DNA of 64,000 bases from Caulobacter sp. CCUG 60055 (GTDB lineage: Bacteria; Pseudomonadota; Alphaproteobacteria; Caulobacterales; Caulobacteraceae): the NCBI RefSeq assembly GCF_022750545.1, contig NZ_PUIC01000005.1, positions 124,001 to 188,000 of the forward strand. Reading direction: 5' to 3'. Shown one piece after another: positions 3,547-54,920 of the stretch (position 1 is the first letter of the stretch; each line of letters opens with the position of its first letter). The notes below the pieces were generated by a model, which saw only the letters and a list, made by a program, of their open reading frames with translations, searched no databases and was not told the DNA's origin. The position numbers and the translations under genes were made by a program.

Positions 3547-5778
3547 ATGAAGAGCCATCAGGCCCTGCTTTCGTGCGGCGCCGCCGCATGCGTCCTTGCG
3601 TTCTCGGCCCAGGCCTCCGCCCAGGCGGCCGACGCGGCGCCCGCCGGCAAAGGGGTCGGCGTCCAACTGGAGGAAGTGGTCGTCACCGCCCAGCGGCGGG
3701 CCGAGACCTCGCAGCGCACCGCGCTGGCCATCACCGCCCTGTCGGCCAACCAGCTCCAGGAACAGGGCGTGCGCACCGTCACCGACCTGACCACCGTGGT
3801 GCCCGGCATCCAGGTCGGCTCGACCGGCGGCTCGGTCGAGATCAGCGTGCGCGGCATCGGCAGCACCAACAACACCGAGGTCGGCGACCCCGCCGTGGCC
3901 TTCAACGTCGACGGCGTCTACATGGCCCGTCCCCGCTCGGCGGCCGGCCTGTTCTTCGACCTCGACCGCACCGAGATCCTGCGCGGTCCTCAGGGCACGC
4001 TGTACGGACGCAACGCCACCGCCGGCAGCTTCAACCTCATCACCAAGAAGCCGACCGACACGTTCGAGGCGTCGGGCCAGCTGGAGCTGGGCAATTTCTC
4101 GCTGGTGCGCGCGTCGGGCGTGCTCAACGCCCCCCTGTCGGACAAGGTGGCGATCCGGGGCGCCTTCCAGACCGAGAAGCGCGACGGCTACACCAGCGGC
4201 CTCAACAACAACTACAACGACGAGGACGCCGCCGCCGGACGGCTGCACGTGCTGATCAAGCCGACCGAGGACCTGTCGATCCTGCTCAGCGCCGACTACT
4301 TCCAGAACAAGGGGGCGGGACCGGCTTCCGCGCCGCTCGGCCAATACGCCCAGGGCGGCGATCCCTACACCTTCCCGATATCGAAGCGCGGCTCCAACGA
4401 CCAGAAGAACTACGGTTTCGCCGCCCAGGTCGACTGGCGTCTGCCCTTCGCCACGCTCACCTATCTGGGCGCGATCCGCGACGACGACGTCGACACCGTC
4501 GCCGGCCAGGGCCGGGGCTATCCGGTCGGCGCCGTCCAGCCCGCCGGCCGCTGCGAGCCGACCACCGCGGTCGGATGCCTGAACCTGATCTTCCGCTCGC
4601 GCGAGGAGCAGCAGTCGCACGAACTGCGCCTGGGCGACGACCGCGGCCGCCTGAAGTGGGTGGCCGGGCTCTACTACTTCAAGGAAGACAATGACGTCTT
4701 CTTCAACGCCTCGCCGGCGGTGGCCTTCATCCAGCCCAACACCTTCGCCGAATCCAAGGCGGCGTTCGCCCAGGGCACCTACAGCGTCACCGACCGCCTG
4801 CGCGTGACCGCCGGCCTGCGCTACACCCAGGACGAGAAGGGCCGCACCGGCGGCACCTATGTCAACCTGCCCTCGAACGGGGTCTGCCCCCTGCCCGGCG
4901 GCCTCAACGGCTCGCTGTTCGCGCCGATCCCGGGCTGCCTGCTCTACGCCAACGTCGCCGACTTCACCTGGAACGCGACCAACTACAAGCTGGGCGTCGA
5001 GTACGACCTGACGCCGACCTCGCTGTTCTACGCCGACACGGCCACGGGCTATAAGGCCGGCGGCTACGGCGACGGCCAGCCGCCCGCCAACAACAAGTAC
5101 GATCCCGAGCACCTGACCGCCTACGAGGCCGGGATCAAGAACCGCTTCTTCAACAACCGGGTGCAGGCCAACATCTCGGTCTTCTACTACGACTACAAGG
5201 ACTTCCAGGTCTCGGCCCTGGGCGTGGTCGCCGGCCAGCCGTCGAACGTGACGGTCAACGCCCCCAAGGCCACCCTGTACGGGGCCGAGTTCGAGGGATC
5301 GGCCGTGCTCACCGACGCCGACCGCATCGACGGGGCCTTCTCCTACCTGCACGCCCGCTACGACAACTTCGTGCTGCCGACCGGCGACGCCTTCAATCCC
5401 GGCCGCGCCGACTATTCGGGCCTGCCCCTGGCCAAGTCGCCGGAATGGACCTTCAGCCTCGGCTACCAGCACGCCTGGACCCTGCCGGGGGACGGCCGCC
5501 TGACCGGCCGCGTCCAGACCCACTACGAAAGCTCCAAGAACCTCGACTACCACAACTTCGGGGTCACGGCTCAGGGGGCCTACACCAAGACCGACATCAT
5601 GCTGACCTACGACTCGCCGTCGCGGCGCTGGAGCGTGATGGCCTACGGCCGCAACCTCGAGGACAAGGCCGTGCTGATCCAGGCCAGCCCCGACGCCCAG
5701 ACCGCCAACCGCTTCGGCGGCACCGGCAGCTACGCCCCGCCGCGCCTCTACGGCGTGCAGTTCTCGGCGCGCTTCTAG
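3547..5778 (+). CDS. TonB-dependent outer membrane receptor, sugar locus
   Basis: Outer-membrane 22-strand barrel receptor of 743 residues that probably imports an oligosaccharide or glycoside using TonB energy. A signal peptide ends near QASAQA. It is followed by a TonB box-like EEVVVTAQRR, the plug domain (about residues 55-165, with RGIGS and LRGPQGTLYGRNATAG), and a barrel ending in the typical terminal aromatic (FSARF). A GGGGAG ribosome-binding site precedes the ATG. It lies between the operator pairs and a GH3 gene, the usual layout of sugar-uptake loci in Caulobacterales. The substrate is inferred from its neighbours. Confidence 0.93.
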   Translation: MKSHQALLSCGAAACVLAFSAQASAQAADAAPAGKGVGVQLEEVVVTAQRRAETSQRTALAITALSANQLQEQGVRTVTDLTTVVPGIQVGSTGGSVEISVRGIGSTNNTEVGDPAVAFNVDGVYMARPRSAAGLFFDLDRTEILRGPQGTLYGRNATAGSFNLITKKPTDTFEASGQLELGNFSLVRASGVLNAPLSDKVAIRGAFQTEKRDGYTSGLNNNYNDEDAAAGRLHVLIKPTEDLSILLSADYFQNKGAGPASAPLGQYAQGGDPYTFPISKRGSNDQKNYGFAAQVDWRLPFATLTYLGAIRDDDVDTVAGQGRGYPVGAVQPAGRCEPTTAVGCLNLIFRSREEQQSHELRLGDDRGRLKWVAGLYYFKEDNDVFFNASPAVAFIQPNTFAESKAAFAQGTYSVTDRLRVTAGLRYTQDEKGRTGGTYVNLPSNGVCPLPGGLNGSLFAPIPGCLLYANVADFTWNATNYKLGVEYDLTPTSLFYADTATGYKAGGYGDGQPPANNKYDPEHLTAYEAGIKNRFFNNRVQANISVFYYDYKDFQVSALGVVAGQPSNVTVNAPKATLYGAEFEGSAVLTDADRIDGAFSYLHARYDNFVLPTGDAFNPGRADYSGLPLAKSPEWTFSLGYQHAWTLPGDGRLTGRVQTHYESSKNLDYHNFGVTAQGAYTKTDIMLTYDSPSRRWSVMAYGRNLEDKAVLIQASPDAQTANRFGGTGSYAPPRLYGVQFSARF

Positions 5779-5801
5779 GGCGCGCCTCCCGAACCCTCGA
5801 T

Positions 5802-5837
5802 TGTCCGGCGCGGCAGGTTCGCGCCGGACACCTTTTT
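5802..5837 (+). terminator. Rho-independent terminator after TonB receptor
   Basis: Perfect 11-bp stem TGTCCGGCGCG / CGCGCCGGACA with a 7-nt loop, followed by CCTTTTT. It lies between the receptor and the second GH3 gene, so it probably reduces read-through and gives the receptor a higher transcript level than the downstream enzyme. Confidence 0.85.
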
Positions 5838-5876
5838 GGGTTCGCCCACCTATCGTCCGCCCCGGAGTTCGAGAGC

Positions 5877-7844
5877 ATGCGCAAGACCGCCGCCAGCCTT
5901 CTGTCCGCCGCCCTGGCCGCGACCGCGACGGCCGCCTGCGCCCAATCCGCCGCCCAGCCCGAGCTGGGCGTCCGCAGCGCGCCGGTGATCGTCGTCGACG
6001 GACTGCGCTTCAAGGACCTCGACCGCAACGGCAAGCTCGACCCCTACGAGGACTGGCGGCTGACGCCCCAGGCCCGCGCCCGCGACCTGACCGCGCGCAT
6101 GACGCTGGAGGAGAAGGCCGGGGCGATGATGCACGGCACCGCGCCGGCCGTGGGCAACCCGTTGGGCATGGGCTCGGCGTATGACGCCGCCGCCGCGACC
6201 GCGGCGATCGGCGGCCGCGGCGTCAACAGCATGATCACCCGGCTGAGCGCGCCGCCGGCCCAGTTCGCCGAGCAGAACAACGCCCTGCAGGCCATAGCCG
6301 AGGCCACGCGCCTCGGCGTGCCGCTGACGCTGAGCACCGACCCGCGCAACCACATCCAGCACATGGTCGGCGTCGGCGTCGACGCCGCCGGCTTCTCGAT
6401 CTGGCCCGACCCCACCGGCCTGGCGGCGATCGGCGATCCGGCGCTGACCCGCCGCTTCGGCGACATCGCCCGCCGCGAATACCGCGCCGTCGGCATCCAC
6501 GAGGCGCTGTCGCCGCAGGCCGACCTCGCCACCGAGCCGCGCTGGCCCCGCGTCAGCGGCACCTTCGGCGAGGACGCCGACCTCGCCGGCAAGCTGGTCC
6601 AGGCCTATATCGAAGGCTTCCAGAACGGCGGCGGCGGGATCGGCAAGGACAGCGTGCTGACCGTGGTCAAGCACTGGGCCGGCTACGGCGCTTCGCGGGA
6701 CGGTTTCGACGGCCACACCTATTACGGCCGCTACGCCGCCTTTCCGGGCGGGGCCTTCGCCTATCACCTCAAGCCCTTCGAGGGCGCCTTCGCCGCCAAG
6801 GTCGCCGGCGTCATGCCGACCTACGACATCATCGAAGGCGTGAGCGTCGACGGGGCGCCGCTGGAACCCGTCGCCGCCGGCTTCAGCCGCCAGATGCTGA
6901 CCGGCCTGCTGCGCGGCCGCTACGGCTTCGAGGGCGTGATCCTGTCGGACTGGGCGATCACCAACGACTGCAACGAACGCTGCCGCACCGGCAAGCCGGA
7001 GCAGCGCCCCCAGGACATCGGCATGCCCTGGGGCGTCGAGGACGCCTCGGTCGTCGACCGCTTCGCCAAAGGCGTCGTCGCCGGGCTCGACCAGTTCGGC
7101 GGGGTCGACGATCCCGCCCCGCTGCTGGCGGCCGTGCGCGAGGGCAAGGTCCCCGCCGCCCGGCTCGACGACTCCGTCCGCCGGATCATGGAGCAGAAGT
7201 TCGCCCAGGGCCTGTTCGAGAATCCCTATGTCGATCCCGAGGCGGCCGCCCGCACGGTCGGCCGGGCGGACTTCAAGGCCGCCGGGCTGGAAGCCCAGAG
7301 CCGGGCGCTGACCGTGCTGGAGAACCGGCTGGGCCCGGCGCCGCTGGCCGGCAAGCGGGTCTATCTGCGCGGGGTCGACGCCCAGGTCGCCCGGGCGCGG
7401 GGCCTGACGGTGGTCGACGATCCGGCCAAGGCCGAGGTGGCGCTGGTTCGGCTCAGCGCGCCGCACCAGCTGCTGCACCCGGGGCACTTCTTCGGCCGCT
7501 GGCTGCACGAGGGCGACCTCGACTTCAAGGACGGCGACCCGGACTACGAAGCCTTCAAGGCCGTCGCCGCCAAGACCCCGACGGCGGCCGTGGTCTATCT
7601 CGACCGCCCGGCCATCCTGACCGGCCTGCGCGGCCGCGCGGCCATGCTGGTCGCCGACTTCGGGGCCAGCGACCAGGCCGTGCTCGACGCCCTGACCGGC
7701 AAGGCCAGGGCCGAGGGCCGCCTGCCCTTCGAGCTGCCGTCCTCGATGGAGGCGGTGGCCCGCCAGAAGGCCGACCTGCCACACGACAGCGCCGACCCGC
7801 TCTATCCGATCTTCTACCGGGCCGGGGACAAGGCGAGCCGCTAG
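5877..7844 (+). CDS. GH3 glycosidase with N-terminal EF-hand-like loop
   Basis: Secreted GH3 enzyme of 655 residues. The start at 5877 gives a clean signal peptide ending near ACAQS; in-frame starts further upstream would run through the terminator and the receptor gene. Residues 47-58 fit a calcium-binding EF-hand loop (DxDxNGxLDxxE). The GH3 barrel includes VVKHWAGYG and the nucleophile motif ILSDWAITND (Asp about 358). An alpha/beta sandwich domain follows, but no fibronectin-III domain is apparent, so it belongs to a different GH3 subfamily from the enzyme at 989-3289. It probably works with that enzyme on the glycoside captured by the receptor at 3547. Confidence 0.92.
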   Translation: MRKTAASLLSAALAATATAACAQSAAQPELGVRSAPVIVVDGLRFKDLDRNGKLDPYEDWRLTPQARARDLTARMTLEEKAGAMMHGTAPAVGNPLGMGSAYDAAAATAAIGGRGVNSMITRLSAPPAQFAEQNNALQAIAEATRLGVPLTLSTDPRNHIQHMVGVGVDAAGFSIWPDPTGLAAIGDPALTRRFGDIARREYRAVGIHEALSPQADLATEPRWPRVSGTFGEDADLAGKLVQAYIEGFQNGGGGIGKDSVLTVVKHWAGYGASRDGFDGHTYYGRYAAFPGGAFAYHLKPFEGAFAAKVAGVMPTYDIIEGVSVDGAPLEPVAAGFSRQMLTGLLRGRYGFEGVILSDWAITNDCNERCRTGKPEQRPQDIGMPWGVEDASVVDRFAKGVVAGLDQFGGVDDPAPLLAAVREGKVPAARLDDSVRRIMEQKFAQGLFENPYVDPEAAARTVGRADFKAAGLEAQSRALTVLENRLGPAPLAGKRVYLRGVDAQVARARGLTVVDDPAKAEVALVRLSAPHQLLHPGHFFGRWLHEGDLDFKDGDPDYEAFKAVAAKTPTAAVVYLDRPAILTGLRGRAAMLVADFGASDQAVLDALTGKARAEGRLPFELPSSMEAVARQKADLPHDSADPLYPIFYRAGDKASR

Positions 7845-7916
7845 CCGCGAAAGCCGGATGACGGGACGGCCGGGCCGGACTAGGTTGCCGCGGGGCTGGT
7901 TCGCCCGTGGAGTCCC

Positions 7917-8942
7917 GTGCCCGACGTCACCATCACCCACATCGCCCGCGCCGCCGGCGTCTCCATCAAGACGGTCTCGCGCGTGCTCAACCGCGAAACC
8001 GGCGTCGGCGCCGAGACCCGGGCCCGCGTCGAGGCGGTGATCGGCCAGCTCGGCTATCGGCCCAACGTCTCCGCGCGCTCGCTGGCGGGGGCGCGGTCGT
8101 ACCTGATCGGCCTCGCCTTCCAGAAGGTGGCGACCGCCTACGGCCTGGAGTTCCAGTTCGGGGCGATGGCCGCCTGCCGGCGGGCCGGCTACCACCTCGT
8201 GGTCGAGCAGGTCGGCGACGAGGACGACGGCGCGGCGGCGCCGTTGTCGCGCCTGTTCGCCGACATCCGCGTCGACGGCGTCATCCTGGCCCCGCCCGCC
8301 GCCGACGACCCGGCGGTGCTGGACGACCTGGAGGCCGCGGGCCTGCCCTACGCCCGCGTCGCCCCGGACGGCGCCTTCGGCCGCTCGCCCTACGCCGGAA
8401 TGGACGACCATCGCGCCGCCTTCGAGATGACGCGGCTGCTCTGGGGCCACGGGCACCGCCGCATCGCCTTCATCGGCGGGCCCGACATCCATTCCAGCGC
8501 CCGCCGGCGGCGCGAGGGCTGGGCGGCCGCGCTGGCCGCGCTGGGCGGCGAGGCCCGTCCCGAGTGGCTGGAGCGCGGGATGTTCCTGTCGCATTCGGGC
8601 TTCGAGGCGGCCGACCGGCTGCTCGACCTGGCCGAGCCGCCCACGGCGATCTTCGCCGCCAACGACGAGATGGCGTTCGGCGCCCTGGCCGCCGCCGCCA
8701 AGCGCGGCCTGTCGGTCCCGCGCGACCTTTCGGTGGCAGGCTTCGACGACACCTACGGCGCGCGGTCGTCCTGGCCGCCGCTGACCACCGTGCGCCAGCC
8801 GGTCCGCGAGATGGCCGAGGCGGCGGTCGATCTGCTGATCGCCGGCTTCGGCGCCGTCGCCTCGGAGGACGCGCCGCGCGCCAAGCTGCTGGAGTTCGCC
8901 CTGGTGGAGCGCGCCTCGGTCGGCCCGCCGCCGGCCCGCTGA
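7917..8942 (+). CDS. LacI-family transcriptional regulator
   Basis: A 341-residue repressor starting at GTG. Residues 1-55 form the LacI helix-turn-helix and hinge ([30 protein letters not shown]). The rest is a periplasmic-binding-protein-like sensor domain with the usual [12 protein letters not shown] and [11 protein letters not shown] segments. It lies 72 bp after the GH3 gene and is the obvious candidate to bind the four GACAACG(T/C)TGTC sites at 3349-3483, released by a sugar effector. No experimental link is visible in sequence. It ends 22 bp from the convergent rcnR-like gene. Confidence 0.93.
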
Positions 8943-8964
8943 CCGGCCGCCCTCGGGACGACGA

Positions 8965-9243
8965 TCAGGTCAGATAGGCGTGGACGATGTCGACCAGCTC
9001 CTCCGCCGCCTGGCGGCGGGGGTCTCCCTGGCCGGCGTTCGGATCGACCATGTGCTCGCGGATGTGATCCTCGATCACCTCGGCGATGAAGCCGTCCATG
9101 GCCCCCCGGCAGGACGTCGCCTGCTGCAGGACCCGCACGCACTCCTTGTCGCCTTCCACGGCCCGCTCGATCGCCTCGATCTGGCCGCGGATGCGCTTGA
9201 GCCGGTTCAGGAGCTTGGCCTTCTCCTTCGCGACGTGACTCAT
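8965..9243 (-). CDS. RcnR/CsoR-family metal-sensing repressor, RcnR ligand set
   Basis: A 92-residue all-helical DUF156 repressor. The metal-ligand fingerprint is His3, Cys35, His60 and His64, which matches E. coli RcnR (nickel/cobalt) rather than CsoR (Cys-His-Cys, copper) or FrmR (formaldehyde). A G/C-tract operator typical of the family lies 26-45 bp upstream and overlaps a likely -10 element (TATTAT on the minus strand), suggesting autorepression. It diverges from the cation-transport cluster beginning at 9872 and may control it. Family and ligand pattern are read directly; the sensed metal is inferred. Confidence 0.9.
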   Translation of the reverse strand: MSHVAKEKAKLLNRLKRIRGQIEAIERAVEGDKECVRVLQQATSCRGAMDGFIAEVIEDHIREHMVDPNAGQGDPRRQAAEELVDIVHAYLT

Positions 9244-9268
9244 TTTTTTCGACTGGCCCTCTTGATAA

Positions 9269-9288
9269 TATAACCCCCCTGGGTATAT
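9269..9288. promoter_or_regulatory. RcnR/CsoR-type operator (TATAACC...GGGTATAT)
   Basis: A G/C tract flanked by AT inverted repeats, the known form of RcnR/CsoR operators. It sits between the rcnR-like gene (minus) and the leader of the Nramp-related gene (plus), within an A/T-rich promoter-like stretch, so one site could serve both directions. Confidence 0.75.
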
Positions 9289-9582
9289 CGCACCTTATGC
9301 CGGATGCGAAGCCCAGTCGGGCCGAACATCCGCATGGCCGACGCCCCCAAGGACGCCGGTCTTCGTCCAACCAGACCAAGGGATCACATGAACCCGCGAT
9401 CTAGCACACCGACCGTCGAGGGAGACAGTAGGCGCTCGTCGTCATCTGTCGCCAACTCGTCCGGCCGGTTCGTCGCTCGGGATCGGTTCGTGATCGCCCG
9501 CGGAATGGCGCCTCGGCGCTGACCGCGCGCGGCCGGACCTCCCGGGCTTGAGCATAACCGCTGAAGCCAAGAGGAGGCTCCC
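9289..9582. other. Leader region upstream of the cation cluster
   Basis: About 290 bp without a convincing gene. A 72-codon open frame at 9304-9522 is Ser/Arg/Pro-rich and lacks a good ribosome-binding site, so I do not call it. The stretch may be a long 5' leader of the Nramp-related operon; I could not match it to the yybP-ykoY manganese or M-box magnesium riboswitch consensus. Confidence 0.4.
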
Positions 9583-14757: not shown

Positions 14758-15393
14758 ATGGAATCATCTGCGCCCTGGGATTTCGTCGGCCCGTCGCTGG
14801 GCCTCATCCTGGACCGCATCCATGTCGGCGCCGTGCTGCTGGACGAAAGCGGCCGCATCGCCTTCGCCAACAGCCGGGCCCGGGACCTGTTGCAGTCCGG
14901 AACCCCGGTGCTTGAGACCGACGGCCGCCTCGCCGTCTGGCCGCCGCAGAAGAAGCATTTCGACCGCCTGCTCTGGTCGGCCATGGAGGGACGGCGCGAC
15001 GCTCATCCGCTGACCCTCGGGGCCTATGACGAGGAGCACCGGATGATCATGGTGATCGAGCCGCTGCACGACGAGCCGCTCACCCGGTCGCGCTGGACCA
15101 TCGCCTGGATCGTCGACAGCGACGGCGCCGAGCCGAACTGCGAATGGCTGGCCGCCCTGCACCAGCTGACCCCGGCCGAGAAGAACGTCACCCTGAACCT
15201 CGCCCGCGGCCTGTCGACCGTCGAGGTGGCCCGCAAGCTGTCGATCTCGGTGGCCACGCTGCGCACGCACCTGCGGCGCATCTTCGGCAAGACGGGATGC
15301 CAGAACCAGGCCGCCCTGGTGCGCCTGGCCCACCTGCTGCCGATCAGCCCGATCGCCGTCCACCACGTCCAGCCGACCGCCGCCGTGGCCTGA
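14758..15393 (+). CDS. LuxR-type regulator with PAS-like N-terminus
   Basis: A 211-residue transcription factor. Residues 15-120 look like a PAS-type sensor (HVGAVLLDESGRIAFANSRA). Residues about 137-198 form a LuxR helix-turn-helix (LTPAEKNVTLNLARGLSTVE, VARKLSISVATLRTHLRRIF). It lacks a receiver domain, so it is not a response regulator. A GAGGGAG ribosome-binding site precedes the ATG. Located immediately upstream of the secreted Asn-rich protein genes, on the same strand and between two AT-rich promoter regions, it is the likely local activator of the fibre operon. Confidence 0.88.
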   Translation: MESSAPWDFVGPSLGLILDRIHVGAVLLDESGRIAFANSRARDLLQSGTPVLETDGRLAVWPPQKKHFDRLLWSAMEGRRDAHPLTLGAYDEEHRMIMVIEPLHDEPLTRSRWTIAWIVDSDGAEPNCEWLAALHQLTPAEKNVTLNLARGLSTVEVARKLSISVATLRTHLRRIFGKTGCQNQAALVRLAHLLPISPIAVHHVQPTAAVA

Positions 15394-15729
15394 CGCCCAC
15401 GGCGGAGCGGCCTGCGACAAAACGGCGCCGGCCGCCGTCGCCCCCGCCGCCCACCGACTATCCGTAGAGGTCTCGCCGCCCGCACGCCGCTATTAGCGGT
15501 GTTTTCGCGTGTCAGGCGACCAATATTTCAAGTCTATATCCGCCTTGGGAAAATAGAATTCCGGCGAAGATTTGACCCCCTTGACGAATATCATGTCGCC
15601 GCACAGTCGGCGACCGTAGGGTCACAGCACTCTCGACGAGCTGCGGGGGTATGGAAGTGGCTTTTGCAGCACGTACTCGTGCCTCGATAGCCGTTTACTT
15701 GGATCCATCTGAATACCTGGAGAACGACC
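15394..15729. promoter_or_regulatory. Promoter region of the fibre operon with two inverted repeats
   Basis: About 335 bp, AT-rich in its second half. Two inverted repeats stand out: GTCGCCG-N6-CGGCGAC (15595-15614) and GCACG-TACT-CGTGC (15669-15682). The latter lies 48-61 bp upstream of the start at 15730. Either could bind the LuxR-type protein encoded just upstream. No confident -35/-10 pair could be assigned. Confidence 0.5.
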
Positions 15730-16362
15730 ATGAAGTATTCAGTTCTTGCTGCGGTCTCCGCCGCGGCCCTGGGGCTGGCTTTCTCGGGCGCCGCCTACGC
15801 CCAACAAGGTGGCACGAACAACACGTCGGGCAACCTCGGCCTGCTGAGCGCCATCGGCAATCAGCTGAACGCCGACAGCAACCATAACAACGACAACAGC
15901 AACCACGACAACGGCAACCTGCAAGTCGACGGCAACACCCTGTGGGCCGGCAACACTTGGACCGACAGCTCCACGCACGTGAGCGTGGGCAATGTCAGCC
16001 TGTCGGTCGACACCGCCACCAACAACCAAACCCTGAACGGCAACGTCAGCGGCAACGGCTTCAACATGCAAGCCAACCAAGCGGCGGCGGCCGGCGGGTC
16101 CGGCGGTGACGGCGGCAGCGGCTTCGGCATCGGCCTCCTGGCCGGCGTCGGCGCCGGCGCGGCTGGCGGCGCGGGTGCGGCTGGCGCGGCTTCGAGCGGC
16201 AACAACCAACCGGTGTACACCGGCGCGATCGACATCGCCGGCGCGGCCTATCAAAGCTTCGCCGGGATTCAGACGGCTTCGTACAACACCGGCCTCGGCT
16301 CGAACGTGCAGTCGAACACCGGCGTGGCTGCGAACGCCAACGTCTCCTTCGGCCACAACTAA
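15730..16362 (+). CDS. Secreted Asn/Gly-rich protein, probable amyloid fibre subunit (FapC-like)
   Basis: A 210-residue exported protein with a clear signal peptide (cleavage near GAAYAQQG). The mature part has an Asn-rich segment (residues 30-115), a long Gly/Ala linker (about 120-155) and a C-terminal block. That block carries TGAIDIAGA, FAGIQTASYNTG and GSNVQSNTGVAANANV. Asn/Gln-rich low-complexity secreted proteins encoded beside a C39-like protease and a coiled-coil barrel protein are the pattern of Pseudomonas Fap amyloid (FapC/FapB). The C-terminal block recurs in the next gene product. A strong terminator follows directly, as expected for a highly expressed subunit. Function is inferred. 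Confidence 0.75.
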   Translation: MKYSVLAAVSAAALGLAFSGAAYAQQGGTNNTSGNLGLLSAIGNQLNADSNHNNDNSNHDNGNLQVDGNTLWAGNTWTDSSTHVSVGNVSLSVDTATNNQTLNGNVSGNGFNMQANQAAAAGGSGGDGGSGFGIGLLAGVGAGAAGGAGAAGAASSGNNQPVYTGAIDIAGAAYQSFAGIQTASYNTGLGSNVQSNTGVAANANVSFGHN

Positions 16363-16375
16363 CAGAGCCTGCTGG

Positions 16376-16412
16376 TTGGATCGGAGGGTTCGCCCTCCGA
16401 TCCAATCCTTTT
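16376..16412 (+). terminator. Strong terminator inside the fibre operon
   Basis: Perfect 13-bp stem TTGGATCGGAGGG / CCCTCCGATCCAA closed by a TTCG tetraloop and followed by TCCTTTT. It lies between the first and second fibre genes and would let most transcripts stop after the abundant subunit, with limited read-through into the export genes. Confidence 0.92.
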
Positions 16413-16449
16413 GCATCGGGGGCGCAGCCCTCGGTTCAGGGAGGTCGCC

Positions 16450-16833
16450 ATGATCATGCAGCTTGCCGGCCCGGCGGTCGCCGCCCTGCTCGCCCAGACC
16501 GATCCGGCCATGACCGGCCCGACGGCGCAGCCGGCCACGACTCCGCCGCCCGCATCGGCGCCCGCGTCGACCGACAAGATCGCGCTGCCCGCCGCCGACC
16601 TGGCCGGCCTGCAGGGCGAGGGCGTCGATCCGCAACTCGTCTCCGTTCAAGACCTGAACGCCACCAACACCGGCAACACGGTCAGCGCCGCCGGCTCGTT
16701 GACGACGGGGTCGATCGCCCTCAGCGGCGCGGTGATGTCCAACTTCACCGGCATCGGCAACTTCGTGTTCAACACCGGCAACAACAACAATCTGCAAGGC
16801 AACGTCACGGTCAACATCGTCCTGGCGCGTTGA
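16450..16833 (+). CDS. Small secreted-type protein sharing the fibre C-terminal motif (FapB-like minor subunit?)
   Basis: A 127-residue protein starting at ATG 16450 with AGGGAGG upstream. A short hydrophobic N-terminus and a Pro/Thr/Ala-rich linker precede a C-terminal block. The block holds NATNTGNTV, TTGSIALSGAVMSNFTGI, FNTGNNNNLQGNV and a final NIVLAR. It aligns with the end of the preceding protein in the pattern TGxIxxxGA, FxGI, NTG, NxQxN and V. It may be a nucleator or minor fibre subunit, as FapB is to FapC. The N-terminus is not a textbook signal peptide, so export is less certain. Confidence 0.7.
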   Translation: MIMQLAGPAVAALLAQTDPAMTGPTAQPATTPPPASAPASTDKIALPAADLAGLQGEGVDPQLVSVQDLNATNTGNTVSAAGSLTTGSIALSGAVMSNFTGIGNFVFNTGNNNNLQGNVTVNIVLAR

Positions 16834-16859
16834 CCGGGCCGTCTTCGGGGTCGAGCACG

Positions 16860-17666
16860 ATGTCCAAACGCCCGTCATCCGCGCCGCGGTGCGCCGCGAT
16901 CCGCAGCCCGCGCCTCCGCGTGGGGCTGGGGGCGGCCCTGCTGGGCGCGGCGCTCGGCGCCGTCGCCTTCGGCGGCCAGGCCTCGGCCTCCAGCATGCAG
17001 GTGGTGCCCGACGGCGGCTCCTTCTCCATGCAGGTGGTCAGCTGGCGCGACATCCCCTTCCGCACCGTGGTCCGCCAGCAGTACGACTACAGTTGCGGCT
17101 CGGCCGCCGTGGCCACCCTGCTGCGTTATCACTACGGCCGGCCGACGGTCGAAAGCGACGTGTTCTCGGCCATGTGGCGCAGCGGCGACCAGGCCCAGAT
17201 CAAGCGGGCCGGCTTCTCCATGCTGGACATGAAGCGCTACCTGGACAGCCAGGGCTACATGGCCGACGGCTACCGCATGCCGCTGGACCAGCTGGCCAAG
17301 CTCAAGACGCCCGCCATCGCGCTGATCCAGATCGGCCCCTACAAGCACTTCGTGGTCATCAAGGGCGTTCATGACGACAAGGTGCTGGTGGGCGACCCGG
17401 CCCTGGGCCTGCTGACCATCACCCGGCCGAAGTTCCAGAGCATCTGGAACGGCATCGTCTTCGCCGTGCGCAAGCCGCCGGCGTCCGCCGCCGCCCCGGT
17501 GTTCAACGACCAGAGCGAATGGGACCCGTGGTCGACCGCCCCGACCGTGGCCTCACTGCCGCGCTGGGCGCTGGCCGACCTGACCATGTCCATGGCCCCG
17601 ATGTACCAACTGACCACCGGCGGCCAGACCATCAACCTCAGAAATCCCACGGCAGGCGTCCCATGA
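16860..17666 (+). CDS. C39-like cysteine peptidase (FapD-like)
   Basis: A 268-residue envelope protein with an N-terminal hydrophobic segment (about residues 20-45) and a C39 papain-like domain. The catalytic set is visible: Cys79 in DYSCGSAA, His163 in YKHFVVIKGV and Asp179 in VGDPALG. C39 domains cleave at double-glycine leaders; in Pseudomonas the stand-alone C39 protein FapD is needed for export of Fap amyloid. Here it lies between the two Asn-rich proteins and a FapE-position protein. The ATG at 16860 is preferred over a TTG at 16830 because of an upstream GGGG. It overlaps the next gene by ATGA. Confidence 0.88.
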   Translation: MSKRPSSAPRCAAIRSPRLRVGLGAALLGAALGAVAFGGQASASSMQVVPDGGSFSMQVVSWRDIPFRTVVRQQYDYSCGSAAVATLLRYHYGRPTVESDVFSAMWRSGDQAQIKRAGFSMLDMKRYLDSQGYMADGYRMPLDQLAKLKTPAIALIQIGPYKHFVVIKGVHDDKVLVGDPALGLLTITRPKFQSIWNGIVFAVRKPPASAAAPVFNDQSEWDPWSTAPTVASLPRWALADLTMSMAPMYQLTTGGQTINLRNPTAGVP

Positions 17667-18244
17667 CACTGCGAAGCCACATCGCGCCGCTGCTGGCGGC
17701 CGCCGTCGCCCTCGTCGCCCCCCTGCCCGCCCATTGCGACGGCTGGGACGCGGTCGCCCCCGTCGGCGACGAGGTGCTGAGCCAACAGCGCGGCGGCTTC
17801 CTGGTCGCCGACGGCATCGCCTTCGACTTCGGCGCGGTGATGCGCACCTTCGTCGGCGGGCAGCTGGCGCTGGAGACCACCCTGACCTGGACCCCCACCG
17901 GCCCGGTGACCCAGCAGACCGCGTTCGGCGGAGCCATGCCGGCCACCCTGGCCGACATCCAGACCGCGCTGACCAACGCCGGCCTGGGCTCGACCTCTGT
18001 GACCGGGCAGAACAGCTACCTGCTCAACGCCGGCCAGACCGTGCTGATCCAGAACGCCAGCAACGGCGCGGTGCAGAACCTGCTGCTCAACACCGCCAGC
18101 AACCAGGTCATCACCCAGGACCTGGCGGTGACCCTGACCCTGCCCAACAGCGCCGCGTTCCAGGGCGCGATCAACACCCAGCAGCTGGGCTTCGCCCTCA
18201 ACGCCGCCGGCACGGCCGCGGCGATCGGAGCCCTGCACCGCTGA
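17663..18244 (+). CDS. Secreted protein in FapE position
   Basis: A 193-residue exported protein whose ATG overlaps the stop of the C39 peptidase gene. After a signal peptide (cleavage near LPAHCDG) comes a conserved-looking segment, DEVLSQQRGGFLVADG followed by FDFGAVMRTFV. The remainder is rich in Asn, Thr, Gln and Ala. The RGG after an N-terminal helix could be a processing or recognition site for the adjacent C39 enzyme, though it is not a classical GG leader. Gene order matches FapD-FapE of Pseudomonas. I do not recognise clear sequence identity to FapE. Confidence 0.65.
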   Translation: MTLRSHIAPLLAAAVALVAPLPAHCDGWDAVAPVGDEVLSQQRGGFLVADGIAFDFGAVMRTFVGGQLALETTLTWTPTGPVTQQTAFGGAMPATLADIQTALTNAGLGSTSVTGQNSYLLNAGQTVLIQNASNGAVQNLLLNTASNQVITQDLAVTLTLPNSAAFQGAINTQQLGFALNAAGTAAAIGALHR

Positions 18245-18278
18245 GGCTCCCGCAAGGCCTCCCGGCCCCGACGACTGA

Positions 18279-18310
18279 GGGCCCGGCGCGAGCGCCGGGC
18301 CCTTTCTTGT
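18279..18310 (+). terminator. Terminator at end of fibre operon
   Basis: Perfect 11-bp stem GGGCCCGGCGC / GCGCCGGGCCC with a 2-nt (effectively 4-6 nt) loop followed by TTTCTTGT. It separates the plus-strand operon from the convergent barrel gene. Confidence 0.9.
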
Positions 18311-18330
18311 CGTCCCGCCGCAAGGCGCCA

Positions 18331-19689
18331 TCACCAGAAGGTGATGGGGATGCGGAACATGATGTGGGTGTTGGGGGCGTCGGCCGTGGTGCCGAACTCG
18401 TAGGTCGAGTTGATCCAGATGCGGTCGGTCAGCCGGAACGAGAAGCCCAGCGCGACCACCCCGACCTGGGCGCTCTTCGAGCGCTCGCGGTCGCCCGGGA
18501 AGTCGATCGCCGACGGCCAAAGGTAGGCGTACTTGTAGCCGAGCGAGTAGGAGAAGCGCGAGTTGAGCGCGAAGCCCATGCCCATGCTGACCGTGGCCAC
18601 GTCGCCGGGCTCGACCTTGTTGATGGTCACGCCCGAAATGGTCTTCTTGATGCTCTGCTCGAAGCCGTAGGCGTAGCTGGCGGTGGCGTAGATCACCGCC
18701 GGGTCGGTCGGATAGAGCATGGTGATGCTCGGCTCGGCCGACCAGTAGCCCGAGCCGGTGGCCAGCTTCTCCTCGACCCCGAACTGGTCGCGCGGCACGG
18801 TGAACGGGTTGCTGCCCGTGTCGGACTTGACCCGCAGGCCGGCGATGAAGATCGGGAAGTTCGGCTTGATCTGGTTGATCTGGTAGCGGGCGGAGAACTC
18901 GATGTCGCCGATGTCCTGGTCCTGCAGCGAGATCTCGCGAGTGATCTGGGTGTCACGCTGTTGCACCACGCTGATGCGGTCGGCCCGCCACAGGTAAGGC
19001 ACCCGCAGCTCCACCTCCAGCCGGCTGGTCAGGCCGTAGCGGGCGTCGATGGCCGCCGACCCGGCGGCGCGGTTGGTGTCGCTGGCCTCGATGACGCCCA
19101 GCTGGATGCCGGGCACGATCTCGACGCCGCGGAACACCAGGATGTGGGAAGCGGTGTTGGTGTATTCGATCTGCGGTTCGATCACCAGCTTGCCATGGGG
19201 CGTCAGCACGCTGGACTCCGGCGGCACGGCGGCGAGCTGCGGCCGACGCTCGTCGGGCGGCGCCTCGCCGACCGGCTGCTGCGGCGCCGCTGCGATCTGG
19301 GTCGGAGGGGCGGAGGACGGGGCCGTCGGCGGCGGGATGGCCGTCACGGACTGTTCGGGCCCGGGGGCGCTGCTGGCGTAGACGTTGTAGCCGGCGCCGC
19401 GCAGGTCGCGCAGGATCTGGTTGCGCACGCCGCCCAGGTCGTCGATCTGCTGGGTCTGGCGGCTGATCACCGTCTGCTGCTGGACGATCTGCCTGTGCTG
19501 GTCGGCCAGCTCGGCCTGCTGCGCCTGGAGCTGCCGCTCCTGCTTGGCGAGACGGGCCTCAAGGCTCTGGATCTGGGCGGCGACATCGGGCGTCGCCGCC
19601 TGTGCGTGGACGATCTGCGGCGCACCCGCCGCCGCCAGTAACGCGGCTCCACTCACGACACGCGTAAGCTCCTTGCGACTTACTGGCAT
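18331..19689 (-). CDS. Coiled-coil plus beta-barrel outer membrane protein (FapF-like exporter)
   Basis: A 452-residue outer-membrane protein. The signal peptide ends near IVHAQA. Residues about 36-85 form a Gln/Glu-rich coiled coil (IQSLEARLAKQERQLQAQQ and on). A Pro/Ala linker follows, then a beta-barrel from about 165 to the terminal aromatic (RIPITFW). Pseudomonas FapF, the trimeric pore that secretes Fap amyloid, has exactly this order: coiled coil, plug/linker, barrel. It is convergent with the fibre operon and starts 15 bp after the Crp-type gene, so those two are probably one transcript. Confidence 0.8.
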   Translation of the reverse strand: MPVSRKELTRVVSGAALLAAAGAPQIVHAQAATPDVAAQIQSLEARLAKQERQLQAQQAELADQHRQIVQQQTVISRQTQQIDDLGGVRNQILRDLRGAGYNVYASSAPGPEQSVTAIPPPTAPSSAPPTQIAAAPQQPVGEAPPDERRPQLAAVPPESSVLTPHGKLVIEPQIEYTNTASHILVFRGVEIVPGIQLGVIEASDTNRAAGSAAIDARYGLTSRLEVELRVPYLWRADRISVVQQRDTQITREISLQDQDIGDIEFSARYQINQIKPNFPIFIAGLRVKSDTGSNPFTVPRDQFGVEEKLATGSGYWSAEPSITMLYPTDPAVIYATASYAYGFEQSIKKTISGVTINKVEPGDVATVSMGMGFALNSRFSYSLGYKYAYLWPSAIDFPGDRERSKSAQVGVVALGFSFRLTDRIWINSTYEFGTTADAPNTHIMFRIPITFW

Positions 19690-19704
19690 AGCTCCCCCCT
19701 TTTT

Positions 19705-20472
19705 CTATTGAGGTGATCGCCTTGTCCAAGCCGATGCATCGGGCGCCGCCACGGCGGCCATGACGCGAGCCCGATCACCGGCGATCGTATTGTCCCGTCT
19801 GATCTCCCATTCGTTGGCGGCGGCCGTCCCCGGCCCGCCGGCCATGTCCTCGAGCTCGCACCGATCCAGGATCCTGACCCGCTGAGGGCCGCAAAACCCG
19901 ATGAGTCGGCGACGCGCGAACTGTGAGAGCGTCCGGCTAACCGTCTCGGTGGTCAAGGCTAGGTGGTCGGCGATGTCCAGCCGGCACATCGGCAGCTCGA
20001 TGGTTCCGTCCTGTCCGGCCTGCGCCGACATCGAGATCAGGAAGCCGGCCACCCGCTCGGCGGCGCTGCGCAGGCCCAGCAGGGCCACGCGGTCCTCGGC
20101 GCTGCGCAGGGCGTGCTTGAGCACGCGGTCGACCAGCGAGGCGTCGGCCTCGTTGCGCTCGGTCGGGCAGTCGATCAGCCGGTGGTCGTAGCGATGCAGC
20201 ACCGCCGGCGTCACCGCCTCTGCGGCGGCTCGTCGCATGGGCCCGTCGACGCCGATCAGGTCGCCCGGAAAAAAGAAGCCCGTCACCTGCCGGTGACCGT
20301 CCGGAAGATAGCGGCAAGTCCGCACCACGCCGGCGCAGACCTCGTACCAGCTGTCCGCCGGCGTCTCCTCGCCATATACCGGAGCGTCCTTTTTACAACT
20401 CACGACTGTAAATTTAGCCGCACGGTTGAATATTTCGCCGTATCCAGTATGAATTGTGACCCTGCCACCCAT
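19705..20472 (-). CDS. Crp/Fnr-family regulator, FixK-like
   Basis: A 255-residue transcription factor with a cyclic-nucleotide-binding-fold domain (about residues 35-150) and a winged helix (LDIADHLALTTETVSRTLSQ) like FixK and FNR. The iron-sulfur cysteine cluster of true FNR is absent, so direct oxygen sensing by a cluster is unlikely. The ATG at 20472 is chosen because GGGAG precedes it; a TTG seven codons upstream lacks a site. It is followed 15 bp later by the FapF-like gene. The promoter side faces a palindrome like a FixJ site (20536-20547). Confidence 0.9.
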   Translation of the reverse strand: MGGRVTIHTGYGEIFNRAAKFTVVSCKKDAPVYGEETPADSWYEVCAGVVRTCRYLPDGHRQVTGFFFPGDLIGVDGPMRRAAAEAVTPAVLHRYDHRLIDCPTERNEADASLVDRVLKHALRSAEDRVALLGLRSAAERVAGFLISMSAQAGQDGTIELPMCRLDIADHLALTTETVSRTLSQFARRRLIGFCGPQRVRILDRCELEDMAGGPGTAAANEWEIRRDNTIAGDRARVMAAVAAPDASAWTRRSPQ

Positions 20473-48563: not shown

Positions 48564-48700
48564 AGCAGTCCGGGCCGGATCGGGCGCGTCCCGGCCGGCC
48601 CCGAGTTCCCGGGAGACCGGGCTGAAACGGCGGCGGGATCTCCCCCCGCCAATTGTAAGGAAGCGCGGGATCGCCCCGCGTTATGAATGGAGACAGTGCT

Positions 48701-49288
48701 ATGAAGAAGCTCGTTCTGCTGGCGGCTGGCGCCGCCCTCCTCGCCGGCCCGGCCTTCGCGGCTCCCTCGGCCAGCAACGACATCACCATCAACGGCACCG
48801 CGCCGCAGGTCTGCACGCTGGGCAACCCGAACACCACGGGCTCGGCCACCAACGCGACCTTCGCCGGCACCACCGTTTCGGTGACCGCCCTGGCCAGCGC
48901 CACGGACGCCTCGCTGAACCAAACCAGCGTCACCCTGCGTTACGCCGGCATGTGCAACTACGCCCATAACGTCGGCCTGAAGTCGGCCAACGGCGGCCTG
49001 GTGAACGCCTCGGGCGCCGCCAACGCCCCGGTCGCCGGCAGCGGCACCTTCATCCAGCGCGTCGGCTACACCGCCACCGCCAACTGGGCCGGCGCCAACG
49101 ACGTCCTGGCCACCTCGAACAGCACCACCTCCTACGTCGCCCCCGGCGTCGTGAAGGCGAACTGGTCGGTGGCCGGCGCCAACCAAGGCAACCTCGACGT
49201 CAACGTCGCGATCGCCTCGTCCTCGACCCCGGTGGTCGCCGGCACCTACGGCGACACCCTGACGGTCGGCATCGGCGCGGCCCTCTAA
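48701..49288 (+). CDS. Spore coat U-like pilus subunit 2 (probable major subunit)
   Basis: A 195-residue secreted protein; the ATG at 48701 gives a clean signal peptide (MKKLVLLAAG, cleavage near AFAAPS). The conserved pair of Cys (PQVCTLG, GMCNYAH) and the motif HNVGLKSANGGL place it with the products at 49907 and, more distantly, 49317. Ser/Thr/Asn-rich and ending DTLTVGIGAAL. It lies 137 bp after the first subunit, with its own ribosome-binding site, and could be the most abundant subunit. Confidence 0.82.
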   Translation: MKKLVLLAAGAALLAGPAFAAPSASNDITINGTAPQVCTLGNPNTTGSATNATFAGTTVSVTALASATDASLNQTSVTLRYAGMCNYAHNVGLKSANGGLVNASGAANAPVAGSGTFIQRVGYTATANWAGANDVLATSNSTTSYVAPGVVKANWSVAGANQGNLDVNVAIASSSTPVVAGTYGDTLTVGIGAAL

Positions 49289-49316
49289 GCAGGACCGTTG
49301 TTGCGAGGAGATTGAC

Positions 49317-49880
49317 GTGAAACGCTTGGCTCTGACGACCGGCCTGATCGTGGCCGCGGCCTGCCCCGCCTGGGCGGACGACTCCGCGATCAAGGAGCAA
49401 ACGCTTGGGGGCGTCGTCCCCAATGTCTGCCGCCTCGGCGCCGTGTCCCAGAGTTCGGGCGACAACGCCAGCTTCGCCGTCGGCGGGGCCTCCTCGACGG
49501 TGACGGTGACGACGTTCGCCGATCCCAACACGGCCCAGGCCCGGGCCGCCTCGATCAATCTGGGGATCCAGGGGGTGTGCAATCGCTCGCACACCATCCG
49601 TCTCCTGAGCGAGCGCGGCGGCCTCACCCTGGACCAGCCGCCGGCCGGCGCCACGCCCGGGTTCGCCCGTCGCGTGGACTACACCGCCGTCGCCGGCTGG
49701 CCTGGGGCCCAGACGACCCTGACCACCGCCGGCGCCGCCGGCGCCGCGGCCACGGTCGACGTCAGCGGCCCCAGCTCCGGCGACCTGCTGCTCAGCATCG
49801 CGATTCCCTCGGGAAGCACGGCGCTGGTGGCGGGCGACTACCGGGATCGGCTGACCGTCGAGCTCCTCGCCAACATGTAG
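49317..49880 (+). CDS. Spore coat U-like pilus subunit 3
   Basis: A 187-residue exported subunit beginning at GTG after GAGGAG. Signal peptide cleavage is expected near PAWADDS. Cys pair in PNVCRLG and GVCNRSH, loop LLSERGGLTL and end DRLTVELLANM match the paralogues. It is the most diverged of the four, with charged residues where the others have Asn/Ser. It probably is a minor or adaptor subunit. Confidence 0.8.
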   Translation: MKRLALTTGLIVAAACPAWADDSAIKEQTLGGVVPNVCRLGAVSQSSGDNASFAVGGASSTVTVTTFADPNTAQARAASINLGIQGVCNRSHTIRLLSERGGLTLDQPPAGATPGFARRVDYTAVAGWPGAQTTLTTAGAAGAAATVDVSGPSSGDLLLSIAIPSGSTALVAGDYRDRLTVELLANM

Positions 49881-49906
49881 ACGGGCGCAAGCCCGGGAGG
49901 TTCAGA

Positions 49907-50485
49907 ATGAAAACTTTGCTAATCGCCGCCGCCACCGCGCTGGCCTTCGGGGCTCCGGCCCTGGCCGCGTCCAGCCCGGCTCCGAACAGCAACGCGCTGA
50001 GCGGCGTCGCTCCGACCGTCTGCGTCATGTCGGCGCCGACGATCAACAACGCCGACGCAACCCTGGTCTCGGCCACGGCCAACGCCAGCGCCGTGCAGTT
50101 CAGCAACTTCGCCAGCCCGGCGAACGCGCAGCTGACGCCCAACCAGGACTTCACGCTGACGGTCCAGGCCACGTGCAACTACGCGCACAGCTTTGGCCTG
50201 AAGAGCCAGAACGGCGGCCTGAAGAACACCACGACCTCGGTGGTCGGCGGCTCGTTCATCCAGAGCGTCAACTACACGGTCGGCGGCCTCTGGGGCCTGC
50301 ATCCGATCGCGCTGCAGACCTTCGGCCTGCCGAACACCAAGTCGTTCGGCTTCGGCGACGTCGACGGGGCCAACCGCGGCAGCGTCGTCCTGGCGGTTTC
50401 GCTGAACAACCCGTTGTTCAACCGTCCGCTGGTCGCCGGCGCGTTCACCGACGTGCTGACCCTGCAACTGGGCGCGCCGCTCTAA
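49907..50485 (+). CDS. Spore coat U-like pilus subunit 4
   Basis: A 192-residue exported subunit with GGGAGG before the ATG. Signal peptide ends near PALAASS; Cys pair in PTVCVMS and ATCNYAH, then SFGLKSQNGGLKNT, nearly identical to the motif in subunit 2, indicating recent duplication. Ends DVLTLQLGAPL. It immediately precedes the chaperone gene. Confidence 0.82.
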   Translation: MKTLLIAAATALAFGAPALAASSPAPNSNALSGVAPTVCVMSAPTINNADATLVSATANASAVQFSNFASPANAQLTPNQDFTLTVQATCNYAHSFGLKSQNGGLKNTTTSVVGGSFIQSVNYTVGGLWGLHPIALQTFGLPNTKSFGFGDVDGANRGSVVLAVSLNNPLFNRPLVAGAFTDVLTLQLGAPL

Positions 50486-50541
50486 GCGGCCGCCCGACAG
50501 GGCGTTTTACTTTTTGATTTGGGGGAGTGGGGGGCGTCGTC

Positions 50542-51297
50542 ATGAAAGCGCGTAACCTGTTGGCCGCTGCGCTAGCGGCGTCTGTTTTCATGGCGGCGCC
50601 CGCCGCCTTCAGCATGAGCGTGTCGCCCATCCTGGTCGACCTGAAGCCGGCGGGTTCGCAAGGCTCCAGCCAGATCAAGGTGGTCAACACCCTGGCCAAC
50701 GACCTGCCGGTCGAGCTGACCCCGCTGGTCGCCACCGTCGACGAGAAGGGCGAGGTCAAGACCGCGCCCGCCGGCGACGAGTTGCTGATCTTCCCGCCCC
50801 AGGCGATCATCAAGCCGGGCGCCACCCAGGTCTTCCGCGTGCAATGGGTCGGCGAGCCCGACATCAAGCAGAGCAAGACCTACCTGGTGTCCGTGGCCCA
50901 GCAGCCGGTGCAGCTGCCGCAGGGCTCTTCGGGCATTCAGCTGCTTTACGATTTCCAGGTGGTGGTCAATGTCGGTCCGCTGACCGGCAAGCCCAACCTG
51001 AAGCTGGTCAAGACCGAGCTGGTCAAGGACGACAAGGGCGCCCGCCGCGCCGCCATCACCCTCACCGACGATTCCGACGTCCACGCCTATCTGAGCGCGA
51101 CCAAGCTGCGGCTCGAACTGAGCGACGACGCCGGCAAGACCGTCTGGAGCAAGAGCTGGGCCCCCGAGGAGATCGCCGGCACCGTCGGCATCGGCCTGGT
51201 CCAGCCCCACGCCACCCGCCGTTTCGTCCTGCCCTACGACCTGCCCGCCGAAGGCGCCAAGCTCAACGCCGAGGTCCGCTATGAAGCACGCCCGTAG
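50542..51297 (+). CDS. Periplasmic pilus chaperone (FimC/PapD-like)
   Basis: A 251-residue chaperone. After the signal peptide the N-terminal Ig-like domain begins SMSVSPILVDLKPAG, followed by FPPQAIIKPGATQVFRVQW, the conserved G1-like strand region used for donor-strand complementation. The second domain follows (YDFQVVVNVGPL and after). Such chaperones fold pilus subunits and deliver them to the usher. It overlaps the usher gene by 17 bp. A GTG at 50527 is an alternative start. Confidence 0.88.
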   Translation: MKARNLLAAALAASVFMAAPAAFSMSVSPILVDLKPAGSQGSSQIKVVNTLANDLPVELTPLVATVDEKGEVKTAPAGDELLIFPPQAIIKPGATQVFRVQWVGEPDIKQSKTYLVSVAQQPVQLPQGSSGIQLLYDFQVVVNVGPLTGKPNLKLVKTELVKDDKGARRAAITLTDDSDVHAYLSATKLRLELSDDAGKTVWSKSWAPEEIAGTVGIGLVQPHATRRFVLPYDLPAEGAKLNAEVRYEARP

Positions 51298-53941: not shown

Positions 53942-54840
53942 TGAAATGGATGCTGATGAGCGCCGCCGCGACCCTGGCCCTGGCCGCGGCGCACAGTCAG
54001 GCCCAGGCGGCCCAGTGCTCGCTGACCACCACCTCGCCGGCCAGCGTGACGATCAACTACGACCCGCTGGCGGCCTCCCAGAACGAGACCACGGTCACGG
54101 TGATCCGCCAGAACGGCTGCGGCTTCACGCTCTATGACGACGCCGCGGTCGCCAACCAGGACTTCTCCCGGTTCGGGCATAGCGGGCCGATCACCCGCAC
54201 CAGCTTCGCGGCCACCTATCGCTATCCGGCGAGCTGGCCCTGCGACCTGAGCGGCTCGTTCCTGTGCGAGATCGGCGACGGCGAGCCGCGCAGCCTGCGC
54301 GCCAACGGCCAAGCCAACCACCAGCTGAAGATCACCATTCCGGCCGGCGTGTCGCCGCGCAACCTGCCGGCGGCCCTGTCGCTGTACATGCCCGAGCCGC
54401 GCTACAACCCGAACGGCAAGCTGGACCAGATGGACTCGCACGAGCTGCGGGTGCTGTTCAACGTGATCCAGTCCGCCTCGCTTTCCTTCGCGGGCGGCGG
54501 CTCGTCGCTGACCATGGATTTCGGGACCCTGGCCACCGGCCAGGTCAAGTCGGTCAACGTCATGGCCCGCGCCACCGCGCCGTTCCGGGTGAAGATGACC
54601 TCGGACATGGGCTCGGCGCTGAAGCTGAACGGCCAGGCCAATTCGCCCTGGTCGATCCCCTACACCGCCACGCTGAACGGCAGCCCGATCGCCCCGAACA
54701 GCGACTATCGCAACCTGACGTCCAACGGTTCGGGCGGGGTCGATCTGGCCCTGCCGTTCCAGGTGACGATCGGCGACGCCTCGGCCAAGAAGGCCGGCGC
54801 CTACCGCGACGTGGTCACGTTGCAGATCTCGCCGCTCTAA
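53941..54840 (+). CDS. Tip/adhesin-type spore coat U protein
   Basis: A 299-residue secreted protein, larger than the subunits, with two beta domains. An N-terminal domain with several Cys (QCSLTTTS, NGCGFTL, WPCDLSG, FLCEIG) is followed by a C-terminal SCPU-like domain (from about residue 185, ending DVVTLQISPL). Two-domain subunits encoded after the usher are normally tip adhesins in archaic chaperone-usher pili. Its start codon shares a base with the usher stop. Confidence 0.8.
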   Translation: MKWMLMSAAATLALAAAHSQAQAAQCSLTTTSPASVTINYDPLAASQNETTVTVIRQNGCGFTLYDDAAVANQDFSRFGHSGPITRTSFAATYRYPASWPCDLSGSFLCEIGDGEPRSLRANGQANHQLKITIPAGVSPRNLPAALSLYMPEPRYNPNGKLDQMDSHELRVLFNVIQSASLSFAGGGSSLTMDFGTLATGQVKSVNVMARATAPFRVKMTSDMGSALKLNGQANSPWSIPYTATLNGSPIAPNSDYRNLTSNGSGGVDLALPFQVTIGDASAKKAGAYRDVVTLQISPL

Positions 54841-54876
54841 GCGGCGAGGCCGGCTGATCCTGAAAGCCTTGCGAGA

Positions 54877-54902: not shown

Positions 54903-54920
54903 CGTCGCATCAGGCGTCCG

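Follow-up and report, generated by a model that had tools for sequence, protein, structure and literature searches.

A putative Fap-type fibre-secretion cluster in Caulobacter from a lineage sister to canonical Fap, with a candidate FapD cutting site in FapE

In the present study, we analysed 64,000 nucleotides of a contig from Caulobacter sp. CCUG 60055 (hereafter, the window) and found a gene cluster that we interpret as a Fap-type fibre-secretion system of a lineage sister to the canonical fapABCDEF system. We give this reading a probability of about 80%; the secretion mechanism is proposed from sequence comparisons, and the fibres are putative. The comparisons indicate a real, well-conserved and divergent Fap-type system, for which amyloid formation, trimerisation of the pore and cleavage of the substrates are predicted. 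The preliminary description of the cluster as a diverged Fap-type system in an alphaproteobacterium was thus supported, with the refinement that the system belongs to a separate and widespread sister lineage, not to canonical Fap. As membership of canonical Fap fails on FapC, on FapA, and on phylogeny, we classified the cluster as a variant of Fap.

Fap was described as limited to Beta-, Gamma-, and Deltaproteobacteria (PMC3792158). Later, Fap was reported in 25 more genera, and fapD-fapF pairs in five further phyla (PMC6173800). In the open-access literature that we searched, neither Fap in Alphaproteobacteria nor a leader in FapE was the subject of any paper. FapD is periplasmic, and FapC secretion requires its Cys residue; the authors of the structural work found the target of FapD unclear, saw no canonical C39 sequence in Fap proteins, and suggested the FapF linker as the target (PMC5557850).

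The features of the cluster are listed in Table 1. All open reading frames of the preliminary description were found in their places, including the secreted-protein gene (17663) whose start overlaps the stop codon of the C39 gene by 4 nt. The fapF-like and FixK-type genes are convergent to the LuxR-type, subunit, C39, and fapE-like genes. Among the products, Pfam and NCBIfam recognised only the regulators (GerE domain of the LuxR-type product, 7.6e-10), the C39 peptidase, and the barrel. Direct annotation of the products of 15730, 16450, and 17663 gave nothing usable; thus, iterated profiles were needed for these proteins.

Table 1. Features of the Fap-type cluster and candidate sites in the window
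Feature	Position	Strand	Remarks
LuxR-type regulator gene	14758..15393	+	PAS-like and GerE HTH; upstream of the subunit operon
Candidate FixK/Fnr box TTGACGAATATCAT	15581..15594	+	1 mismatch to TTGAY-N4-RTCAA
Major secreted subunit gene	15730..16362	+	210 aa; Sec signal, low-complexity body, C-terminal block; in the position of FapC
C-terminal block of the major subunit	16219..16359	+	homologous to the block of the small protein
Small secreted subunit gene, FapB-like	16450..16833	+	127 aa; by profile comparison
Degenerate double-glycine-type site LPAADLAGLQGE of the small subunit	16585..16620	+	nearest relatives LSPEALADLSGG and LDEAELADLVGG
FapD-like periplasmic C39 cysteine peptidase gene	16860..17666	+	C79, H163, D179
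FapE-like secreted protein gene	17663..18244	+	193 aa; by profile comparison
Double-glycine-type leader VGDEVLSQQRGG of the FapE-like protein	17762..17797	+	residues 34-45
FapF-like outer-membrane pore gene	18331..19689	-	coiled coil 34-98, disordered linker 100-156, barrel 168-452
Possible third FapD-type site ILRDLRGA^G	19393..19428	-	end of the FapF coiled coil; by motif
Crp/Fnr-family FixK-type regulator gene	19705..20472	-	just upstream of fapF, same strand

The machinery genes gave the clearest matches. The C39 domain was found at 1.4e-23 (Pfam), and the protein matched the NCBIfam FapD model at 1.5e-45 with 155 bits (equivalog cut-off 330). The proposed Cys79/His163/Asp179 residues, as well as Q73, were invariant in 11 diverse relatives. 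The protein has the features of a Sec-exported C39 peptidase with Cys, His, and Asp, and we regard it as FapD-like. The barrel protein matched the NCBIfam FapF model at 2.7e-34 with 118.7 bits (equivalog cut-off 700) and the solved FapF structure in the PDB at E=9.6e-26 over the whole barrel. The AlphaFold2 model (pLDDT 79) comprised a coil, a disordered linker, and a barrel, and the top 18 Foldseek matches of this model were all FapF structures, with TM-scores of 0.79-0.87 on the target. The predicted fold and coil agree with the 12-strand barrel and N-terminal periplasmic coiled coil of FapF. Thus, the coiled-coil plus beta-barrel protein modelled as FapF and not as an unrelated channel; we regard it as FapF-like, with a putative trimeric state.

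Every NCBIfam equivalog cut-off was missed by the products of the window, whereas a Pseudomonas-type locus used as a control had its FapA, FapB, FapC, and FapE named above the cut-off. Homology to Fap is therefore certain, and equivalence is not.

The three remaining products were compared by profiles; the hhalign E-values given here are those of single comparisons, not of database searches. A profile of the FapE-like family, built without the canonical loci, found canonical FapE in place at 1e-7 to 1e-2 (the best reversed decoy reached 2e-3), and the two families aligned with a probability of 95.4% (2e-8). Although the product had no direct NCBIfam FapE match, these comparisons identify it as a FapE homologue. 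With the small-subunit profile, the FapB proteins encoded by canonical loci were found at 3.6e-11 to 4.5e-3, and the comparison with canonical FapB profiles gave 86% (4.9e-6); accordingly we call this product FapB-like. The C-terminal block that had been noticed in both the major and the small protein was borne out by a profile-profile comparison of the two families (97.6%, 3e-12). Its pattern in the major subunit is TG..x(AFSx)..AGI....NTG..S..Q......NANV.

The major subunit, initially described as an Asn-rich secreted protein, is secreted; its low-complexity body is Asn/Gly/Ala-rich, so that the label holds only in part (G 18%, A 17%, N 14%). In relatives, the length of the major subunits varies between about 130 and 1100 aa, and their sequences are either N-, D-, and S-rich or G-rich. 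The product had no NCBIfam FapC match and no recognisable GNxGVNxAAGxxNQQ repeats as in FapC. Against the FapB/C repeat, the shared C-terminal block aligned in register, but the probability was only 15% (P=0.0018), and no homology to FapC was detectable by these two comparisons. AlphaFold2 predicted disorder for the monomer (pLDDT 41), which is uninformative on structure. There was no FapA-like gene among the clustered open reading frames; fapA is also the gene most often missing in canonical Fap (PMC3792158, PMC6173800).

Phylogenetic analysis of 121 FapD sequences (a quick tree without bootstraps) placed the window not inside the canonical Fap clade but in a clade of 104 members, here called clade 2, that was sister to it; the separating branch had an SH-aLRT value of 97. 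Two long-branched sequences (L047 and L048) were placed near canonical Fap. Two Caulobacteraceae MAGs grouped with the FapD of the window, Sphingomonadales joined next, and clade 2 spans Alpha-, Beta-, and Gammaproteobacteria, Geobacteraceae, and others. In a named scan, FapD relatives were found in Caulobacter, Phenylobacterium, Brevundimonas, Asticcacaulis, Hyphomonadaceae, Sphingopyxis, Sphingomonas, Novosphingobium, Rhodospirillales, Halomonas, Ectothiorhodospira, Acidithiobacillus, Massilia, Cupriavidus, Burkholderia, Geotalea, and others. A FapF homologue was present in 26 of 249 genomes of the order of the window.

The gene set was co-conserved well beyond Caulobacterales. Among the 104 clade-2 loci, the small protein was found in all, the FapE-like protein in 102, a low-complexity major subunit in 94, and FapF within about 8 kb in 93, several of the missing partners being due to contig ends. 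This recurrence, in 93-104 of 104 related loci, is far beyond chance. The fapF gene was convergent in 58 of the 93 loci. Canonical and clade-2 Fap loci lie within about 7 kb of each other in Billgrantia (L180) and Aidingimonas (L182). As these Halomonadaceae carry one FapD of each kind, the two lineages are distinct systems.

Several other loci had unusual arrangements. In two genomes from another order of the same class (L098 in G372 and L099 in G333), we found classical FapB/FapC repeats, FapD scores of 229 and 208 bits, and an extra conserved 200-aa gene beside fapE; these are Alphaproteobacteria, in which canonical Fap was reported absent. In L103 (G383, 4924-9370), the cassette of small subunit, FapD, and FapE-like protein was tandemly duplicated, and the copies were near-identical. 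In several genomes of a Hyphomonadaceae genus (g17; L051/L052 and L053/L054), the FapF homologue was far from the fapD cluster and adjoined CoA-transferase-like subunit genes, and some such genomes had FapF without detected FapD. Whole clade-2 clusters were found on large plasmids of Croceicoccus marinus (L085) and Polymorphobacter (L086), where the annotations are only hypothetical proteins, C39 family peptidase, and transporter. An Anaerolineae MAG (L162) contained a clade-2 cluster with a 2487-aa open reading frame upstream; the contig is labelled Chloroflexota, and either horizontal transfer or a binning error may account for this. The window itself has an apparent separate cluster of chaperone-usher pilus type (48683-55331), judged by eye from the translations, with a chaperone-like gene at 50527, a large usher-like gene at 51281, and small secreted subunits on both sides.

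C39 peptidases cut after leaders with hydrophobic residues at -12 and -7, an acidic residue at -8, G at -2, and G, R, or K at -1. In FapE-like proteins, a pattern of this type, [LVIM]xxxELxxxRGG followed by F or Y, occurs soon after the Sec signal, and the family consensus has L-12, E-8, L-7, G-2, and G-1. In the window, the site is VGDEVLSQQRGG^FLVADG, and FapD is proposed to cut after G45 and before F46; positions -12 (V), -7 (L), and -2 and -1 (GG) are kept, and -8 is V. In non-redundant sets, 53 of 61 clade-2 FapE-like proteins had [LM]xxxRG[GRK], against 0.84 in shuffled sequences. The counts were 11 of 13 for canonical FapE (0.14 expected), 29 of 79 for small subunits (0.32 expected), and 0 of 12 for canonical FapB. 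A strict double-glycine expression matched 50 of 89 FapE-like and 20 of 76 small proteins (0.2 and 0.1 expected from shuffling); it matched 0 of 56 FapD, taken as a control, and 6 of 62 FapF. The -1 residue was G in 75 of 80 clade-2 FapE with the motif and R or K in 14 of 14 canonical ones. This residue tracks the FapD clade, also in the two dual-system Halomonadaceae genomes, where each FapE retains the leader type of its own clade.

The small-subunit site of the window is degenerate (LQGE), and a recognisable site was absent from 25 of 100 clade-2 small proteins. Near or at the end of the coiled coil, [LIM]x2-3RGxG was found in 21 of 112 FapF, including that of the window (1.1 expected). Pfam leader families did not match the leaders, and NCBIfam gave only a bacteriocin-like peptide (0.012) and FapE (0.009). 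A generic PSSM of known bacteriocin leaders was only modestly enriched (38 of 89 FapE-like proteins at p<0.05), because these sites prefer Arg at -3, and was set aside; the stricter pattern was far more significant. A loose site score, reached by 39% of shuffles and thus not significant alone, was used for the consensus and logo display only. Mass spectrometry saw no N-terminal peptides of FapE (PMC5557850). As the motif occurs in FapE of both lineages, FapE is probably a common substrate of FapD, and in the new lineage the FapB-like protein is a probable substrate too.

In the Caulobacteraceae/Sphingomonadales branch, the FixK-type gene adjoining FapF is conserved. Of the two local regulators in the preliminary description, only FixK has such conserved linkage; few related loci share the LuxR gene, and its linkage as a conserved feature was rejected. 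The preliminary statement on regulators is thus only partly correct, and Pseudomonas-type loci have a regulator of their own, an adjoining sigma-54 activator. Such an activator was near 10 of 12 canonical and about 45 clade-2 loci, and no locus among those compared had both the activator and FixK. A sigma-54 promoter preceded the major subunit in 33 of 36 activator-linked loci examined (many perfect; 6.3 expected) and in 4 of 19 FixK-linked loci (3.4 expected). RpoN activates fap in P. fluorescens (PMC8202526). Together with the sigma-54/FixK split, this looks like an exchange of regulators in the branch of the window, in which FixK was swapped in for the sigma-54 activator. The candidate box TTGACGAATATCAT, intergenic and ahead of the major-subunit gene, is only suggestive as a regulatory site. 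Boxes of this kind were found in 3 of 19 FixK-linked loci (0.5 expected), and a box as a general trait of these loci was rejected.

Other explanations of the cluster were considered. Fap-like machinery may have been reused for a non-amyloid surface protein, such as a soluble or matrix-bound Asn/Asp-rich adhesin or an ice- or ion-binding repeat protein. The very Asp/Asn/Ser-rich or Gly-rich major subunits of relatives, without homology to FapC, and the predicted disorder of the monomer in the window would suit such a protein; the C-terminal block common to the major and small proteins, the latter FapB-like, corresponds instead to the subunit/nucleator arrangement of Fap, and we consider this reuse rather unlikely. 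The conserved RGG could also be structural, or a FapF-docking peptide, with the target of FapD elsewhere, for example in the FapF linker (PMC5557850). The residues after the site, F-x4-G-x3-FG, are conserved as well in FapE-like proteins, and the FapF motif lies at the coil/linker end. However, the pattern fits the C39 leader rule and is seen again in the small subunit, and the FapF sites, which only a minority of FapF proteins have, could be further targets. We judge this explanation unlikely and prefer a cutting site.

Membership of the Fil-type putative pilus system of Acinetobacter (FilB/FilC), instead of kinship with Fap, is suggested by the second-best NCBIfam matches, FilB at 1.2e-37 and FilC at 3e-16. 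The Fap models nevertheless scored higher (FapD 155 against FilB 130 bits; FapF 119 against FilC 60), the 11 FapD relatives scanned all matched both models, the better of the two best E-values being that for FapD, and the cluster has FapE- and FapB-like partners. Fil membership was rejected, as 130 of 475 bits (FilB) and 60 of 630 bits (FilC) are below the cut-offs and the Fap scores; a system of Fil type is very unlikely. A C39 peptidase with double-glycine-type leaders might also belong to a bacteriocin or microcin export island. Such an island was rejected, and is hardly credible, on several grounds: no ABC transporter and no immunity gene could be recognised in the cluster, the C39 protein carries a signal of Sec type, a FapF pore is present, and the putative substrates, which are 127-210 aa long here and reach about 1100 aa in relatives, have fibre-type repeats.

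The Fap-type lineage described here shares with canonical Fap of Pseudomonas and relatives the FapD-type peptidase, the FapF-type pore, the FapE homologue with its leader motif, the FapB-like subunit, and the gene order subunits-D-E(-F). It differs in the absence of FapA and of recognisable FapC repeats, in new Asn/Asp/Ser- or Gly-rich major subunits, in the double-glycine-type leader that the small subunit also has, in RGG instead of RG[RK], in the usually convergent fapF, and, in the branch of the window, in FixK instead of the sigma-54 activator. With the Fil system it shares the C39 peptidase and a FapF-related outer-membrane protein, although both proteins of the window match Fap better in a comparison that covers FilB and FilC. 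The fapD-fapF pairs that Rouse et al. (2018, PMC6173800, Fig. S1) described in five further phyla are the same machinery pair outside the classical Fap genera; in the part of that paper considered here, neither substrates nor relatives of FapE/FapB are given, nor a leader motif or regulators. The present lineage probably accounts for part of that colocalisation signal. The leader pattern at -12, -8, -7, -2, and -1 is shared with the C39 substrates of bacteriocin ABC exporters, whereas the peptidase of the present cluster is a periplasmic protein of its own, whose substrates would pass Sec first.

We propose that Sec would carry all products of the cluster across the inner membrane. On entry into the periplasm, the FapE-like protein would bear a second leader of double-glycine type, [LVIM]xxxELxxxRGG^F, and in most relatives the FapB-like subunit would also have a leader of this type. 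FapD would cut the leader off after RGG, so that export is licensed or ordered. The major and minor subunits, unfolded, would then exit through the putatively trimeric coiled-coil FapF pore and build an amyloid-like fibre outside the cell. In the lineage of the window, the adjacent FixK-type regulator, not a sigma-54 activator, probably controls expression. We find it fairly probable that Fap has a second widespread lineage, whose major subunits form families of their own, and that FapD matures FapE in both lineages, and in the new one also the FapB-like protein and in some cases FapF, by cutting at a periplasmic leader of double-glycine type.

If this is true, fibre subunits would use a two-leader export route, a Sec signal followed by a C39 leader. 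The comparison offers one testable FapD site, present in Pseudomonas FapE too, where the structural work left the substrate and its recognition sequence open. The sigma-54 activator and FixK provide what looks like a clean example of regulator exchange. Fap-type secretion extends to a broad sister lineage with members in Alphaproteobacteria, from which Fap was reported to be absent, and this lineage supplies many new candidate fibre proteins of unusual composition.
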